Shown here one piece after another: positions 21,942 through 32,021 of a stretch of DNA of 64,000 nt. The DNA comes from Limisphaerales bacterium (lineage in GTDB: Bacteria; Verrucomicrobiota; Verrucomicrobiia; Limisphaerales; SXTU01): contig WRPG01000016.1 in assembly GCA_009773355.1 (NCBI GenBank), forward strand, positions 1 through 64,000. Direction: 5' to 3'. The notes under the pieces are model-generated. The model was not told the origin of the DNA. It was given only the letters and a program-made list of their open reading frames with translations, and made no database searches. A program made the position numbers and the translations under genes. Within the stretch, counting starts at the first letter, position 1. Every line of letters begins with the position of its first letter.

Positions 21942-24900
21942 TCACTTGGCGGTCAGGCGGCGGGTGATGTATTCGCGGATGACGGGGATTTTGGCCTTGG
22001 CGAGGAGGAGCGCGCCTTTGGCGGGGTCGGCGGCGACGATGGGTTCGGTGGCATACCAATACATCAGCGGGAGGTTGTGGTCGGTGGCGTCCTCGGCGTG
22101 GGCGAGGAGGGCCTCGACGATGGGCAGGCGCTCGGCCACGGTCAGGCGCTGGCAGGCGCTGGCGAGGTAGAGGCGCACGACGGGCGACGGGTCTTCCTTT
22201 GCGAGGCGGGCGAATTCCTTCAGGGCGGCGTCGCCAGGTTTGTGGTCTTCGCAGAGGAGTTGGATGGTCCAGGCGCGGACGTGCTCATGCGCGTGCTTCA
22301 GCATACGAACGCCGAATTCTGGGCCGCGCCTGTCCAACGCGGAATGATTGTCCTTAAAGCCGCCGGCTACATGCAGTGCTCGCATCGTAGCTACAGTCAT
22401 TCGTGCCTCAAAATCAGCTCGCTCCCGGTCCGGGTTGAGTGGGTGCATCAATGTCTCTTGGAGGTTCCTTTGGAGTTCCCCTTTCACATCGGCGTCAAGT
22501 CCACGCTCTTGAACCAGACGCAATGCGTGCCGACTCTGCCAAGCGTTGTTCGCACCCCACACCCATTTGGCGAGCTCTTGGCCGTAGAGTGGGGTGAGGT
22601 CAACGCTTCGTCCCAGCAGCGCCGTCCGCTTGAGAGCTAGCTCGTGGGTGATCTTGTAAATCCGCCCGTTGCTGCGGTCATGCACGTTCGGGTCGCGCTG
22701 GTTGTGGCATTGCTGGCGGTCATACCAGTCAATCACGAAGACGTTGCCGTCCTGGTCAATCATCTGGTTGAGCGTCTGCGAGGCGCGGTCGTTGAAGTTC
22801 AGGAAGTCCGGCGCGTGTTTGCCCACGTAGCCGCTGCCCTTGCGCTCGGGGCTGTCCACGTTCAGGCGCTGGCCGTGGATGTTCCCGATGAAGAGCTTGC
22901 CGTGATACTCCTTGGGCCAGCTTCCGCCGAGGTAGCACATGAGGCCCGCGTGCGCGTGGCCGCCGCCGGCGGCGTCGGAGCGCGCGTTGCCGCCGTGCGG
23001 GCGGTCGCCGAGATAGTGGCGGTGGTCGGCGATGGTCTTGAGGTCGTCGTAGATGAACGGGTTGATGGGCTGCACCTTTGCGTCCTTGAAGGTGTAGGAG
23101 TTCTCCGGCTGGCCCTGCTGCGGGGAGAAGCTCTGGTCGAAGTAATTCGCCGCGACGCGCCGGGCCTCCACGAGGGTCGGCGCGTAGTGCTGCCCGGCCT
23201 GCCGGTGGTAGCGCCCGCCCTGAATCATGTGGAAGAGATGCGGGATGACGCACGCCTCGATGAAGCAGTGGCCGTATTCGTTGAAGTCAATGCCCCACGG
23301 GTTGCTCGTGCCCTCGGCGAAGACCTCGAAGCGTTTCTTCACCGGCTGGTAGCGCCACACGCCGGCGTTGATGAACTGCCGCTCGCTGTCCGGCGCGCCC
23401 GCGACCTTGACGTGCGAGTGCGTGAACACGCCGTGGCAGCCGTAGAGCCAGCCGTCCGGCCCCCAAGTGAAGGTGTTGAGCATCTCGTGCGTGTCGTGCC
23501 ACGCGAAGCCTTCGAGCAATTTCCTCGGCTCGCCGGCGGGCTGCGGGCCGGCCGCCGTCTCCTTCACGGGAATGTGCAGCAGCCACGGCGCGGCTCCGAC
23601 GAACACGCCGCCGAAGCCCCACTCGATGCCCGACGCGAGGTTCAGCCCCTCGATGAAGACCGTGCGCTTGTCGTGCTTGCCGTCGCCGTCCGTGTCCTCG
23701 AAGACCACGATGCGGTCGTCGCCCTTCTCGCCCGGCTTGCGGATGGGGTAGGTGTAGTTCTCGATGACCCAGAGGCGCCCGCGGTCATCAATGCACATGG
23801 CGATGGGCTGCTTCACGTCCGGCTCGGCGGCGAAGACCGTGACCTTGAAGCCCGGCGGCAACGTCATGGCCTTCACGGATTCTTCGGCGGAAAGGCCGTT
23901 GTGCTTCACCTCGTCGAGCGGCGCTGGCGGCGGCGCGGGAGCCTTGGGCGCGGTCTTCTGCGCGAGCGCGGCGAGGGCCTTGCCGGACATCTTCAGCTCG
24001 TTCGCGAACACGGGCCGCTCGTCGTAGAGCTTGAAGTCGTCGAAGTTGAGGTGGCCCCAATGCCCGCCGGCCTGCTCGTCCACCACGCGGATGAAGATTT
24101 CCTTGTTCTGGTGCCGCTCCAAGTCCGCGACCACGGGTGCAAGCGTCTCGGTCGAGTTGTTCGTCTCCTTGAACTTCTCCGGGTCGCCGCCGGGCGTGGA
24201 GAAAATCACGTTGCCGTTGCCCGTGTTCACAATCTCGACGCGCGTTGACGTGTAAGGCCCGGCCGCCACGAGGAACGCCGCGTAGCGGTGCGTGAGGCGG
24301 AAGGGTTTGCTGGTGAGCGTGCCGGTCGCCTCGTCGCCGAGACCGAGTTCGTAGGTTCCAATCCAGTATTTGCCGACGTGCTTGCTCTGGTTCGGCGCGC
24401 GGCGCGCGACCACGGTGTCGCCGAGGATGGGCTGCTGCTTGAACGCGTCGCCCGTCGCGGTCCAATCGCGCAGGTCGCCCGTCTCGAAGTCGGTGTTGAG
24501 CGGCTTGCCGTCGAGGCCGACGGGGAGGACGCCCTTGGTCGAAAGGGGCGGGTTGGCCTTCACATCGGCGGCGGCGAGCTGCACGGGCGCGGCGGCCTTG
24601 GCCTTCTTCGCGGGCGCGGCCTTGTCGCCCTTGCCGCCCGGCGGCTGCACCACGGCGGGCGTGCCGCTGGGGCGCGTGGTGTGGACGATGATGCTCATCT
24701 TCTCCATCGGCTGGTCGGTGAACGTGGGGAACTTCACGAGCGGCTGCGCCTTGGCGAAGGCGTCGGCGGAAACCGTCTTCGCCTCGTGCGTGAAGACGAA
24801 GGTGCCCATCTTGTTGCCGATGATGAGGTCCTGCTTTCCGTCGCCGTTCACGTCGGCGACGCCAATCTGCCGGCCCACGCCGGACGCGGTGTCAATGAGG

Positions 24901-26048
24901 TGCGGCACCCAGTCCACGGACTTGTCGGCTTTGCGCACGAGCTTGAACCAATACAGCACGCCCTCCTCGCCCGCGCCGGGCGCGACGGCTGGCCCGTGCG
25001 CCCAGTAGCAGTTGCCGGTGACGATGTCCTTGAGTCCGTCGCCATCCACGTCGAACAGCTCGACCGCGTGCAGCTCGGGGAAGTGGATGCCGTAGCGGTT
25101 TTCCGCCGGAGCCTTGTGCATGAAGACGTGCGAGCGCCACTTGGGCGAGCCGTTGTCGTCCTTTTCCGCGAGCTGCTCGTGCCACGCGAGGCCGTAGCCG
25201 TGCGCCGCGAGCGCGGTGACGATGTCCGCGCGGCCGTCGCCGTTCACGTCGTAGGCATACATCTGCGCGCTGGTGGGGGCGAAGTTGGTCTTGTGATGCT
25301 TCCACGCCGGGTCGCCCGCGAGCGACTTGGGCTGCTCGAACCAGCCGTCCTTGCAAATGAGGTCGAGCTTGCCGTCGCCGTTCACGTCGCCGACGCCGAG
25401 GCCGTGCGTGAAGCGCTGCCATTTGCCGCCCGCCGTGATGGGCGTGAACTTCCACTTCGCGGTCGGGTTGCTCCAATCGGGCGAGGCGTAGCCGTAGTTG
25501 CCCTCGTAATTGCAGACAATCTCCGGCTTCCCGTCGCCCGTGAGGTCCGTGAACGTCGGCGACTCGTTGTCCACATGGTCGAGCACCGTCGAGCGCTCCC
25601 AGTGCTGCTCCTTGCCCTTGGGATTGAGGTAGAGATACGCCGGCGTGTTCGGCAGGCCGTAGGTCAGCACGTCATTCCAGCCGTCGCCGTTGAAGTCGTG
25701 GACGAAGGCGAAAAAGTTGTCCGTCGAGTAGGCGTTGCGGCTGCCGAAGTTGCCCTCGAAGCCGGGGAACTCGACCTCCGCGCCCTTGAGGTTCTTGGTC
25801 TTCGTCGTGCGCGTGGCCGGGTAAATCTCGTGGCGCTTCTTGAAGTCCGGCCCTTCCCACCAATACGGCCCCGAGATGGCGTCGGGCTTCCCGTCCTTGT
25901 TCAAGTCCCCGAGCATCGCGCCTTCGGACCAGTAGTGCTTGTCGAGCTGCTGCTTCTTGAACGAGTGCAGCATCGGCTCGGCGGCGGAGACGATGAGAAC
26001 GGCGGCGGAGAGCGCGGCCAGAGCGGAGACGGGGAGACGGGACTTCAT
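21942..26048 (-). CDS. FG-GAP/VCBS repeat plus PVC membrane-bound dehydrogenase-type protein
   Basis: This 1368-residue secreted protein starts MKSRLPVSALAALSAAVLIV (signal peptide). About residues 25-490 contain repeated calcium-binding FG-GAP/VCBS motifs (DLNKDGKPD, DFNGDGWND, DVNGDGKLD, DVDGDGLKD, DVNGDGKQD). A beta-sandwich region with TDFETGDLRDWTATG lies near the middle. From LPPGFKVTVFAAEPDVKQPIAM the protein matches the Pirellula/Verrucomicrobium putative dehydrogenase (TIGR02604 type), a propeller, ending in a HEAT-like helical tail. The C-terminal heme domain often found in this family is absent. Substrate unknown. Confidence 0.85.
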   Translation of the reverse strand: MKSRLPVSALAALSAAVLIVSAAEPMLHSFKKQQLDKHYWSEGAMLGDLNKDGKPDAISGPYWWEGPDFKKRHEIYPATRTTKTKNLKGAEVEFPGFEGNFGSRNAYSTDNFFAFVHDFNGDGWNDVLTYGLPNTPAYLYLNPKGKEQHWERSTVLDHVDNESPTFTDLTGDGKPEIVCNYEGNYGYASPDWSNPTAKWKFTPITAGGKWQRFTHGLGVGDVNGDGKLDLICKDGWFEQPKSLAGDPAWKHHKTNFAPTSAQMYAYDVNGDGRADIVTALAAHGYGLAWHEQLAEKDDNGSPKWRSHVFMHKAPAENRYGIHFPELHAVELFDVDGDGLKDIVTGNCYWAHGPAVAPGAGEEGVLYWFKLVRKADKSVDWVPHLIDTASGVGRQIGVADVNGDGKQDLIIGNKMGTFVFTHEAKTVSADAFAKAQPLVKFPTFTDQPMEKMSIIVHTTRPSGTPAVVQPPGGKGDKAAPAKKAKAAAPVQLAAADVKANPPLSTKGVLPVGLDGKPLNTDFETGDLRDWTATGDAFKQQPILGDTVVARRAPNQSKHVGKYWIGTYELGLGDEATGTLTSKPFRLTHRYAAFLVAAGPYTSTRVEIVNTGNGNVIFSTPGGDPEKFKETNNSTETLAPVVADLERHQNKEIFIRVVDEQAGGHWGHLNFDDFKLYDERPVFANELKMSGKALAALAQKTAPKAPAPPPAPLDEVKHNGLSAEESVKAMTLPPGFKVTVFAAEPDVKQPIAMCIDDRGRLWVIENYTYPIRKPGEKGDDRIVVFEDTDGDGKHDKRTVFIEGLNLASGIEWGFGGVFVGAAPWLLHIPVKETAAGPQPAGEPRKLLEGFAWHDTHEMLNTFTWGPDGWLYGCHGVFTHSHVKVAGAPDSERQFINAGVWRYQPVKKRFEVFAEGTSNPWGIDFNEYGHCFIEACVIPHLFHMIQGGRYHRQAGQHYAPTLVEARRVAANYFDQSFSPQQGQPENSYTFKDAKVQPINPFIYDDLKTIADHRHYLGDRPHGGNARSDAAGGGHAHAGLMCYLGGSWPKEYHGKLFIGNIHGQRLNVDSPERKGSGYVGKHAPDFLNFNDRASQTLNQMIDQDGNVFVIDWYDRQQCHNQRDPNVHDRSNGRIYKITHELALKRTALLGRSVDLTPLYGQELAKWVWGANNAWQSRHALRLVQERGLDADVKGELQRNLQETLMHPLNPDRERADFEARMTVATMRALHVAGGFKDNHSALDRRGPEFGVRMLKHAHEHVRAWTIQLLCEDHKPGDAALKEFARLAKEDPSPVVRLYLASACQRLTVAERLPIVEALLAHAEDATDHNLPLMYWYATEPIVAADPAKGALLLAKAKIPVIREYITRRLTAK

Positions 26049-26263
26049 AGGGGTTGAACTGTGATGGAGGAGCTGACGGGGGTGCTGGAAGCGCGCTTCA
26101 GGCAACGGCATGAGAACTTGCGCATTTGATTTGAGATATTTCACACCACGCCGTCCACGGCGACGGCGGCAGCCGCCGGGGCGGGAGGAATCGGCTTCAT
26201 GCTGCTGGTTGTCGCAAGCAGCGCCGGAGGGGTCAAGCGGATTGGCCGGGCGGGGCCGGCAAC

Positions 26264-26968
26264 TCAGGCTGCCGTGGCGTTCTTGGCACGCAACCGCTCC
26301 AGCGCCGCGGCGGCGGCCTGGCTCTCCGCGAGCTTCTTGCTCTTGCCCCTGCCCCGCCCGATCTCCTCGCCCTTGTAGAACACCGCGCATTCGAACTCGC
26401 GGTCATGGTCCGGGCCGGTGGCGGTGAGGACCTGGTATTGCGGGGCCTCGGAGGAGATGGCCTGAAGGATTTCCTGGAGCGCGCCCTTGGGGTTGTCCGC
26501 CGTGGCGGCGCTTTCGATGTCGGTGAACTCATCGCGGAAGGTGTGCAGAATGAAGGCCCGCGCCACGTCGTAGCCACCGTCGAGGAACAACGCGCCGAGA
26601 ACGGACTCGTAGGCGTCGGCGAGGATGGACGGCCGTTCGCGGCCGCCGTTGAGCTGTTCGCCCCGGCTGAGGATGAGATGCTCACCGAGGCCGAGCGCGC
26701 GGCCCTGTTCGGCGAGGGAGACTTGGTTCACGAGCTGGGCGCGGATTTTCGTGAGCGGGCCTTCGTCGTGGTGCGGGTAGCGGTCGTAAAGCTCGCGCGA
26801 GAGCGCGAGCTGGAGCACGGCGTCGCCGAGGTATTCGAGCCGCTGGTTGTGGTCCTGGCTCGCGCCCATCTCGTGCGAGATGGACGGATGCGTCAGCGCC
26901 AGCCGCAGCAGCGCCGGGTCGCGGAACTGGTGGCCGAGGCGGGACTGGAGTTCGTCGAGACTGGACAC
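26264..26968 (-). CDS. rnc: Ribonuclease III
   Basis: RNase III cleaves double-stranded RNA in rRNA and mRNA processing. The 234-residue protein has the signature NQRLEYLGDAVLQL (residues 41-54) with Glu45 and Asp49, the later acidic pair in ILADAYESVLGALFLDGG (Asp118, Glu121) and a C-terminal dsRNA-binding domain (about 155-230) ending in GKSKKLAESQAAAAALERL. Gln42 replaces the glutamate found at the first signature position in E. coli (Glu38). It starts ten bases after the upstream gene ends. Confidence 0.95.
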   Translation of the reverse strand: MSSLDELQSRLGHQFRDPALLRLALTHPSISHEMGASQDHNQRLEYLGDAVLQLALSRELYDRYPHHDEGPLTKIRAQLVNQVSLAEQGRALGLGEHLILSRGEQLNGGRERPSILADAYESVLGALFLDGGYDVARAFILHTFRDEFTDIESAATADNPKGALQEILQAISSEAPQYQVLTATGPDHDREFECAVFYKGEEIGRGRGKSKKLAESQAAAAALERLRAKNATAA

Positions 26969-28886: not shown

Positions 28887-28970
28887 TGTTCAGTAATCAG
28901 TTTCAGTTTTCAGTGGTGCGGCCTGGTTCGGCACCGCGACTGAACACTGGTTACTGAACACTGATTACTT
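28887..28970. repeat. Palindromic heptad element supplying the cytochrome b stop codon
   Basis: The left arm is GTGTTCAGTAATCAGTTTCA and the right arm contains GAACACTGGTTACTGAACAC followed by TGATTAC, read as CAGTAAT-type heptads. The TAA stop of the cytochrome b gene (28965-28967) lies in the right arm. The plus-strand M24-fold gene ends 18 bases to the left, so the element sits between convergent genes. Confidence 0.9.
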
Positions 28971-30911
28971 GGTCCCGTTCTTCGGCGGCACATACCACTC
29001 GCCGCGCAGCCAGTCGGTGAGGAGGCCGAGCTGCTTCGCGTCCAGAATCTTCTTGTCCGCGAAGGCGGGCATGCGGTCGTTGCGCTTGCCGTAGAAGTCC
29101 GCGTGGTTCGGGTTGCTGATGAAGCGCAGCAACCACGCGCGCGAGCCGTAGCCGGTCAGGTCCGGCGCGGTGGCGTCCGGGTCCTTCTTGCCGAAGCTGT
29201 GGCAGTCGGTGCAGGCGAAGTCGCCCGTGATGAGCGCGCGGCCCTGCTTGATGAGTTCGGCATCAGCCTTGTCCGGGCCGGCCTGGGACTTGAGCCTCGC
29301 CTCGGCGGAGAGCGCGGCGATGACTTTCTTCAGGTCGCCGGCCTTCTCGGACGTGCAGTTCTTCTTCACCCACTTGACCATCTTGCCGTCCTTGAACTTG
29401 GTGCCGCCGAAGAAACGCGGGCCATCCACGCGGGCGGGGTCCATCAGGCCGGCCAGCCATTCGCGGGTGGCGAAGCCCTTCAAGTCCGGCGCCCACGGGC
29501 GGGCATAGACCGTGACCTGGTCGCCGGGCTTCAACGCGCGGCCGCCCAGGCTTTTGTTCAAGTCGCGCAGTTGCTCCGGCTTGGTGAAGCGGTATTCGGC
29601 GATGCTTTCCCAAGTGTCCCCGGCACGCACGGTGTAGGTGTTGAGCGGCATCCGCCCCGTGCCGTCGTGGCCGTCGAAGCGGTGGCAGCTCGCGCAGTTC
29701 TTGGCGAAGAGCTTGGGGCCTTGCGTGAAGGGGTCGTCACGCAGCAGCGCCGCGCCCCCGGAGGGCGGGATGCCGCGTTCGGACACGAGCTGGCGCATCC
29801 GCTCGGCGCTGCGGCGGTCGTGTTCCTTGGCGGTCAGATAGGTTTCATCCTTGCTGTCCTGGACGAGCGCGATGCGCGTGAGCGTGAGCGCGCCCACCGC
29901 CAGCACGCCGATGAAGAGGACGTTGAAGCGGTGGCCGTGCTTCCACTTGGCCACGAACGGCATGAGCGCGAGAACCGTCATCACCAGGCCGGGAATGACC
30001 ATCGCGCCCCAGACCTCGGTGCCGCCGGGGAAGTATTTCAGGAACTGGAACAGGAAAAGCATGAACCACTCCGGGCGCGCGGCGCTGTATTGCTCCGAGG
30101 GATCGGCGGGCGCGCCGAGGTGGACGCCCGGGGCGGCGCCGGGATTTTGCCAGAGCGGCACGAGCACGAAGCCCAGCAGCACGATGAGCACCGCGAGGCA
30201 GGCGGCGGCGTCCTTGAGGAACTGCGCGGGGAAATACGGCTCGTCCGGGCAGCCACAGTCCTTGGGCGCGTCCGCAAAGCCGTGCTTGCGGTTCAGATAG
30301 TAGTGTCCGCCCAGGACGAGCGCGACGATCAGCGGCAGCAGGCCCGCGTGCAGCGCCAGGAAGTGCGTGAGCGTGTGATGGCCGACCGACGAGCCGCCCA
30401 TCGCGATTTTTTGCAGCCACGGTCCGATGACCGGGGTGACGCCCATGATGCCAATCGGCACGCGTGACGCCCAAAAACCGTGCTGGTCATACGGCAGCAG
30501 CCAGCCCGTCGCGGACATCGCGATGGCCAACGGGAGCAGCAGCAGCACGAGCCAGAAGTTCACCTCGCGCGGCGCGCGATAGACGCCGTAGATGACCATT
30601 TGCAGCAGGTGCAGCACGAGCACCACCACGAACGCCTGCGCCCCGAAGTGGTGCAGCCCGCGCAGCAGCCAGCCGCCGGTCATCTCGTTCTGGATGAAAT
30701 GGATGCTCTCCCACGCGGTCTGCGTGCTTGGGCTGTAGGCCGTCCACAGGAAAAACCCCGTGACCGCCTGGAGGAAGAACACGTAGAGCAGCAGCGTGCC
30801 CCACGAGTAGCGCCACCGCGACCCGCCGGGAAGGTTTTGGAACAGGAACGCCTCCGCGAAGCGCCCCAGCCCCGTCCGTTCATCCACCCAAGCCAAGACC
30901 CGCTTAATCAT
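28965..30911 (-). CDS. Cytochrome b fused to diheme cytochrome c, with an inserted LysM domain
   Basis: The 648-residue protein is the core of a Rieske/cytochrome b quinol-oxidising complex. Residues 1-350 are cytochrome b with membrane helices and heme histidines in LLRGLHHFGAQAF, VLVLHLL and GHHTLTHFLALHAG. The quinone-site region carries PEW at residues 280-282 (RPEWFMLFLFQF). A periplasmic part has a first heme site CASCH (406-410) and a second CTDCH (567-571). Between CASCH and APDLKGFATREW lies YTVRAGDTWESIAE...LKPGDQVTVYA (about 425-471), a LysM module. The gene overlaps the Rieske gene by ATGA. Confidence 0.93.
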   Translation of the reverse strand: MIKRVLAWVDERTGLGRFAEAFLFQNLPGGSRWRYSWGTLLLYVFFLQAVTGFFLWTAYSPSTQTAWESIHFIQNEMTGGWLLRGLHHFGAQAFVVVLVLHLLQMVIYGVYRAPREVNFWLVLLLLPLAIAMSATGWLLPYDQHGFWASRVPIGIMGVTPVIGPWLQKIAMGGSSVGHHTLTHFLALHAGLLPLIVALVLGGHYYLNRKHGFADAPKDCGCPDEPYFPAQFLKDAAACLAVLIVLLGFVLVPLWQNPGAAPGVHLGAPADPSEQYSAARPEWFMLFLFQFLKYFPGGTEVWGAMVIPGLVMTVLALMPFVAKWKHGHRFNVLFIGVLAVGALTLTRIALVQDSKDETYLTAKEHDRRSAERMRQLVSERGIPPSGGAALLRDDPFTQGPKLFAKNCASCHRFDGHDGTGRMPLNTYTVRAGDTWESIAEYRFTKPEQLRDLNKSLGGRALKPGDQVTVYARPWAPDLKGFATREWLAGLMDPARVDGPRFFGGTKFKDGKMVKWVKKNCTSEKAGDLKKVIAALSAEARLKSQAGPDKADAELIKQGRALITGDFACTDCHSFGKKDPDATAPDLTGYGSRAWLLRFISNPNHADFYGKRNDRMPAFADKKILDAKQLGLLTDWLRGEWYVPPKNGTK

Positions 30912-31471
30912 GCGACTGGTTTCTTCTCCGTGACCCCGAGTTGAAAATCCTGGAACCGCACCCAGACCTCGTTCCGGTTGCGCACCTGGACTTCGAGAGT
31001 GTCCAACGGGCGCGGACTCGGGCTTTGCTCATCCTTCAGCCCGCCGTCCTTGAGGAACAGGCTGTTGTGGCACGGGCAGAGGAAGCCCTGCTGCTCCTCC
31101 ACGTAATCCACAAAGCAGCCCGCGTGCGGGCAGACCACGCTCAGGGCGAGCAGCTTGTCCTTCGCCTGCCGCTGGAGGAACACCGCGCCGATGGGCACCT
31201 GCGTGAACTTTGTCCACGCGTCGCGCCGGTCCGCGAGCACCGGGAACTGCACCGGCGTGCCGTCCTCCGGCAGCGTGTCCAGCGTCGTGACCTTGACGAA
31301 GTTTTCCACCGTCTTGAGGCGGGTGAGCGGGTCGAGAAAAACCCGCGTGCCCACCGCCGCCGGTGTGCCGACCGCCGCCACGGCGAGGCACGCGGCGCAG
31401 CCCTGTTTCAGGAACTCGCGCCGCGCCGGAGGCGACGCTGCTGCGCCGGGAGTGGCGGGGTCTTTTTGCAT
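30908..31471 (-). CDS. Rieske iron-sulfur protein
   Basis: This 187-residue protein carries a Tat signal (RREFLKQGCAACLAVAAVGTPAAVG), as exported folded Rieske proteins usually do. The 2Fe-2S motifs are CPHAGC (Cys114, His116) and CPCHNS (Cys132, His135), with a potential disulfide between Cys119 and Cys134. It is translated just ahead of the cytochrome b-c gene (four-base overlap), and together they should form a bc-type complex passing electrons from quinol to cytochrome c. Confidence 0.95.
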   Translation of the reverse strand: MQKDPATPGAAASPPARREFLKQGCAACLAVAAVGTPAAVGTRVFLDPLTRLKTVENFVKVTTLDTLPEDGTPVQFPVLADRRDAWTKFTQVPIGAVFLQRQAKDKLLALSVVCPHAGCFVDYVEEQQGFLCPCHNSLFLKDGGLKDEQSPSPRPLDTLEVQVRNRNEVWVRFQDFQLGVTEKKPVA

Positions 31472-31628
31472 GAGGCTATGACTTAAAACGTGTTGGTGAA
31501 TTCAGCGGCAATTCGTCGTGGCAGGTCAAGCGACGAGCACGCTCCGGGCCGCGCGGTTCACCGCTTTTTTTGCGTGCAAACCGTCCCCCCTCCGGCTACA
31601 CAGCCCCCCGCTCGACAGCACAACAATT

Positions 31629-32021
31629 ATGAAACGATTCACCATCACCCTCAGCCTCTGCGCGGGCCTCGCGCTCGCCCTCACCGCCACCGCCGCGGAC
31701 AAGAAACTCCCCCCGGCCGCCAAGAAATCCGGCCTGACGTTCGACAAGGACATCAAGCCTATCTTCGAGAAGGCCTGCGTCGAGTGCCACGGCGAGAAGA
31801 AGTCCAAGGGCAAGCTCAAGCTCGACACGCTCGCCAACACCCTCAAGGCCAGTGAAAACGGCAAGTCCGTCATTCCCGGCAAGAGCGCGGACAGCGCGCT
31901 CGTCAAGGCCATCGCCCGCGTGAACGAGGACGACGCCATGCCGCCCGAGGGCAAGGGCAAGCCGCTGACCAACGAGCAGATCGGCCTCATCCGCGCGTGG
32001 ATTGACCAGGGCGCGAAGTAA
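31629..32021 (+). CDS. Periplasmic planctomycete-type cytochrome c
   Basis: The 130-residue product starts MKRFTITLSLCAGLALALTA (signal peptide) and has one heme site, CVECH (Cys50, Cys53, His54), followed by the MPP motif (DDAMPPEGKG) and the closing RAWIDQGAK typical of PSCyt1 domains. It is divergent from the Rieske/cytochrome b operon and could be its electron acceptor, which is inference from position. A strong terminator follows. Confidence 0.9.
   Translation: MKRFTITLSLCAGLALALTATAADKKLPPAAKKSGLTFDKDIKPIFEKACVECHGEKKSKGKLKLDTLANTLKASENGKSVIPGKSADSALVKAIARVNEDDAMPPEGKGKPLTNEQIGLIRAWIDQGAK

Follow-up and report, generated by a model that had tools for sequence, protein, structure and literature searches.

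A genuine LysM domain lies inside the first cytochrome c domain of a cytochrome b-dihaem cytochrome c fusion protein (648 amino acids) encoded on the minus strand at positions 28965-30911 of the window, the 64,000-nucleotide stretch of DNA analysed here. The domain spans residues 423-470 (29502-29645, minus strand), with the Pfam core at residues 426-468 (29508-29636), and is placed between the CXXCH helix and the P-x-L loop of this class I cytochrome c. The LysM family binds GlcNAc-containing glycans such as peptidoglycan, and the insert is proposed, with somewhat more confidence than doubt, to be a putative peptidoglycan-binding tether that would hold the periplasmic cytochromes of a bc-type complex to the cell wall. 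The same module occupies the equivalent loop of a multihaem cytochrome that most likely belongs to a second, differently built Rieske/cytochrome b complex, and it is this recurrence in two differently built complexes that raises the finding above a curiosity.

The open reading frame of the fusion is intact, and Pfam recognizes in its product cytochrome b, two cytochrome c stretches and LysM (PF01476). The cytochrome b part (29847-30911, minus strand; residues 1-355) is assigned from Pfam (PF00033/PF13631), fold match, hydropathy and motif positions, with seven transmembrane helices predicted from both the AlphaFold model and hydropathy, a PEW motif at residue 280 and two invariant bis-His haem pairs (H87/H101 and H188/H203) that have b6-type spacing. 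A structure search matches this part to bc1 cytochrome b with a best Z of 30, and a helical link joins it to the first cytochrome c domain. In that domain the haem motif CASCH is located at 29682-29696 (minus strand; residues 406-410) and the P-x-L loop, APDLKGF, follows the insert at 29472-29492 (minus strand), as placed by alignment with insert-free orthologues. The second haem motif, CTDCH, is located at 29199-29213 (minus strand; residues 567-571). Met511 (29379-29381) and Met614 (29070-29072), both on the minus strand, are candidate axial ligands of the first and second haem c, respectively, a role suggested by their conservation, as both haem motifs and both methionines are invariant in an alignment of 28 orthologues. 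Each domain thus contains the CXXCH, the P-D-L motif and the invariant Met of class I cytochromes c (PF00034/PF13442). Retention of the haem motifs and the candidate axial Met supports the prediction that the haem domain hosting the insert remains functional.

A gene for a Rieske [2Fe-2S] protein with a TAT-like signal (30908-31471, minus strand; PF00355, 34.8 bits) immediately precedes the b-c gene and shares 4 bases (ATGA) with it, suggesting one transcript. A Rieske motif is found just upstream of the b-c gene in 15 of the 15 related loci checked, and on its sequence features the gene pair is a two-gene Rieske/cytochrome b (b6f/bc1-type) complex with predicted quinol oxidase activity. Cytochrome b6 and subunit IV of the b6f complex together have seven transmembrane helices and a cytoplasmic N terminus, which directs the domains that follow to the P side. 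Seven helices after a cytoplasmic N terminus would similarly direct the c domains of the fusion to the periplasm, and this topology, together with the covalent attachment of haem c, supports a periplasmic LysM domain, the side on which it had been placed in a preliminary description of the window. Divergent from the adjacent Rieske gene is a gene for a small planctomycete-type cytochrome c (PSCyt1; 31518-32021, plus strand), a possible electron acceptor. Elsewhere in the window, a large protein containing FG-GAP and DUF7133 regions is encoded at 21942-26390 (minus strand), where a weak TcdB_toxin_midN match overlaps the FG-GAP region and most likely reflects just the repeat fold.

The identity of the insert as a genuine LysM domain is confirmed by profile and structural comparisons. 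The match to PF01476 scores 25.2 bits against a Pfam cut-off of 20.9, and a six-frame search of the whole genome returns the same segment (29508-29636) with 30.2 bits (E 3.3e-6). The AlphaFold model of the whole protein has a strand at residues 423-427, helices at 434-440 and 445-451 and a second strand at 465-469, with pLDDT of about 85-89. A structure search with this whole model gave cytochrome b only among the structures listed, and the c domain was therefore folded separately, giving the LysM strand-helix-helix-strand arrangement with pLDDT of 91-96. The top Foldseek matches in the PDB are LysM structures (probability 1.00, rmsd 1.2-1.8 over 45-50 residues, 40-42% identity), with modest E-values (0.01-0.04) as expected for a very small domain. 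A profile built from the inserts alone, containing no haem motif, matches solved LysM domains with E 3.9e-19. In several homologues the Pfam LysM score is below the cut-off, and the inserts of two records (L009 and L011) read TNETW, the Gly of GDT having been lost (NET in place of the usual GDT/GET). The preliminary description, made from the letters alone, had located a LysM-like domain inside one cytochrome c domain of the fusion; its coordinates (29499-29639, equal to residues 425-471) are correct, and the assignment is borne out by the Pfam profile, by the beta-alpha-alpha-beta fold seen with AlphaFold and Foldseek and by the same insert in other lineages and in five further members of the genus.

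The insertion site is defined by orthologues lacking the domain, in which 12 residues (e.g. TGKPVKDAQSAA) separate GHDG from DLKGF. In the LysM-bearing orthologues the interval is 56-58 residues, with one case of 73, and the flanks of the site align between the two forms without length change. The 12-residue linker is common to most orthologues and occurs in nearly all lineages, outgroups included. The same b-c fusion is present in Planctomycetota, Gemmatimonadota and Acidobacteriota, where the records fetched have linkers of at most 34 residues (7-34 in the planctomycetal relatives aligned). No insertion scars were readable in a DNA comparison of L144 with L168, the two sequences being too diverged. 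A different insert of ~70 amino acids occupies the same site of the b-c fusion in family f2 (L012, L049, L051, L052 and L128-L143, marine records included), where it forms one clade with the consensus ..DELxxRTG..SRFxSxDAVHPDWLARKSGTQNEWQTVQSIL..EGxFDVIA... This insert gave no match in Pfam, to LysM or to any other family, and hhalign did not relate it to the LysM inserts, profile comparisons that lend no support to a diverged LysM; its unrelated appearance indicates that the loop accepts other cargo.

The LysM-bearing form is found in 13 of the 320 genomes of the order that were searched (this genus accounts for six, out of its 11 genomes, family f7 for another six and family f25 for one) and in one further verrucomicrobial record labelled Opitutia (L042), most members of the order having no LysM domain at the site. 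Three genomes of the same genus carry a distant, insert-free version of the gene with about 52% identity, so that LysM status tracks two gene lineages. The distribution of the insert-free (L028, L032 and L033) and LysM-bearing (L006-L011) records within one genus suggests replacement of the complex by transfer. The title of record L036 (RFVF01000065.1), 'Proteobacteria bacterium', looks mislabelled, the record being a match to a genome of this verrucomicrobial genus. No LysM-bearing b-c fusion from outside the order was found in the 384 genomes sampled from the class (order members among them) or in the 337 sampled from the phylum. Weak haem-plus-LysM matches in G356, G011 and G514 turned out to come from other cytochromes, with no LysM domain after the haem motif.

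A gene tree of 80 proteins was calculated with the insert columns removed, together with 200 bootstrap trees. The presence of LysM needs six changes on the tree, all forced by well supported branches, and a single LysM origin is seen in 0 of the 200 bootstrap trees. Placing all LysM-bearing sequences in a single clade is rejected by the AU test (p-AU 2.9e-70) at a cost of 641 log-likelihood units. Uniting L122 with L126/L127 as one clade is compatible with the data (p 0.38), meaning that the count is five or six and not six for certain; five or six separate acquisitions of the LysM domain have thus probably occurred.

Pairwise comparisons within the clade of the window give the LysM domain a dN/dS of 0.11-0.85 (mostly 0.24-0.57), compared with about 0.05-0.18 for cytochrome b; these values are rough because some pairs approach saturation of silent changes. 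The mean dN of the LysM domain is about 3.5 times that of the cytochrome b part. The insert is, on these rates, under purifying selection and less constrained than the protein that hosts it.

The search of the class also identified a multihaem cytochrome (L177, P0001) with a LysM domain scoring 29.3 bits between CYACHRI and APTLAKI, a position equivalent to the insertion loop in one of its cytochrome c domains. The domain is present in 8 of the 8 members of this multihaem family examined, from families f63, f65, f67 and f71, and a remote homologue in G669 is without it. In G335 and G346 the gene order is Rieske, cytochrome b6-like, petD-like and, last, the multihaem cytochrome; operons of this kind, with a multihaem cytochrome c of about 1150 amino acids, are represented by L177, L263 (5516-8980) and L264 (7554-11048). 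It is the position of the multihaem gene at the end of such a run that makes its membership of another Rieske/cytochrome b complex likely.

The proposed tether would work through binding of the LysM domain to GlcNAc-containing peptidoglycan strands, which would fasten the complex and its electron-delivering haem domain to the wall, limiting diffusion of the complex and setting how far it lies from the wall and from the electron carriers of the periplasm. The end of the complex that delivers electrons would then be held at the wall. The main argument for a function is the recurrence of one module at one loop in Rieske/cytochrome b complexes of two distinct builds. The evidence is evenly poised on the broader proposal, that two architectures of bc-type complex in the Verrucomicrobiota have been independently anchored to the wall by a predicted peptidoglycan-binding LysM domain in a haem c domain. 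Against a tether stand the faster change of the insert relative to cytochrome b, the lost Gly and the sub-threshold Pfam scores, the unrelated-looking insert of family f2 and the many members of the order that do without LysM.

Several of these observations would also fit a loop after the CXXCH helix that simply tolerates insertions, in which LysM has been caught most often and has little or no function. LysM is small, has adjacent ends and is very common in periplasmic proteins, and the f2 insert, the planctomycetal linkers of up to 34 residues and the faster evolution of the insert are all compatible with such permissiveness. This explanation is nevertheless considered unlikely, because five or six lineages have LysM at the site compared with one that has another insert, because purifying selection and an intact frame are seen across lineages with many silent changes, and because the second type of complex has LysM at the equivalent loop in every member found, across four families.

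The origin of the insert is a question independent of its function. A single ancient insertion followed by many losses, or by recombination of the LysM segment between genes, would account for a site that is identical in every case, and change counts alone cannot separate gains from losses on a tree. Such a history is judged quite unlikely, as the short linker is near-universal and extends to the outgroups, and the inserts of two lineages (L126/L127 and L124/L125) find their closest matches outside their own clades among ordinary LysM domains, not among the inserts of other clades. The most recent gain is that of G194, whose sister in the same genus, G196, and other close relatives in the family are without LysM. 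Repeated gain is accordingly favoured over a single origin.

It is improbable that the LysM fold has been co-opted for docking or assembly, contacting a protein (a soluble cytochrome, an oxidase, a partner protomer or a glycoprotein) rather than the wall. That some residues typical of LysM have been lost within the clade to which the window belongs, that several members have weak Pfam scores and that the domain is located on the part of the complex that passes electrons on could be read in this way, but the insert profile still best matches peptidoglycan-binding LysM domains, and specific protein docking accounts less easily for separate acquisitions of one sugar-binding fold. Nearly all the sequences are from draft, metagenome-assembled genomes, yet chance and an assembly or binning artefact can be dismissed, given that the reading frame stays open in 14 sequences, which come from many assemblies (those of five further members of the genus with LysM in frame among them), and given the conserved flanks and the structure.

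The underlying architecture, cytochrome b fused to a dihaem cytochrome c, is already known, and it is the internal LysM domain for which no precedent was found. The mycobacterial and corynebacterial QcrB/QcrC (bcc) complexes share the cytochrome b fold (Z about 30) and have a dihaem c component like that of the fusion. In those complexes b and c are separate and there is no LysM domain, whereas here b and c are fused and the b part has seven transmembrane helices. A further counterpart is Kuste3096-3097 of the anammox bacterium Kuenenia stuttgartiensis (PMC12954380), a Rieske protein together with a polypeptide that joins cytochrome b to a two-haem c domain; the gene pair of the window likewise combines a Rieske gene with a single polypeptide of cytochrome b and two-haem c but differs in the LysM domain, of which that paper makes no mention. 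Redox chemistry is also tied to wall-binding domains in extracytosolic redox (flavinylation) gene clusters, which encode separate wall-binding proteins with SLH, LysM and other domains (PMC8238504). In those flavin clusters the wall-binding part is a separate large protein, in contrast to a LysM domain within the cytochrome c domain of a bc-type complex. The insert resembles PF01476/CBM50 domains, such as the LysM pair of the T. thermophilus NlpC/P60 endopeptidase (4uz2 and 4uz3), in fold, length and sequence pattern; among the LysM examples listed, wall hydrolases, transpeptidases, chitinases and receptor kinases predominate, in contrast to the redox domain that hosts the present one. A full-text search of mainly open-access papers found no description of a LysM domain inside either a cytochrome c or a bc complex, in line with the initial remark that no such arrangement was known.

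A single cytochrome c loop accepts a whole domain with the haem motifs retained, which is useful for protein engineering. The natural insert-free orthologues, one small domain apart from the LysM-bearing forms, provide a clean test of the tether. Respiratory complexes are usually pictured as diffusing freely in the inner membrane, and if a LysM wall module recurs in complex III-like haem domains, this would be evidence that evolution fixes such complexes in place.
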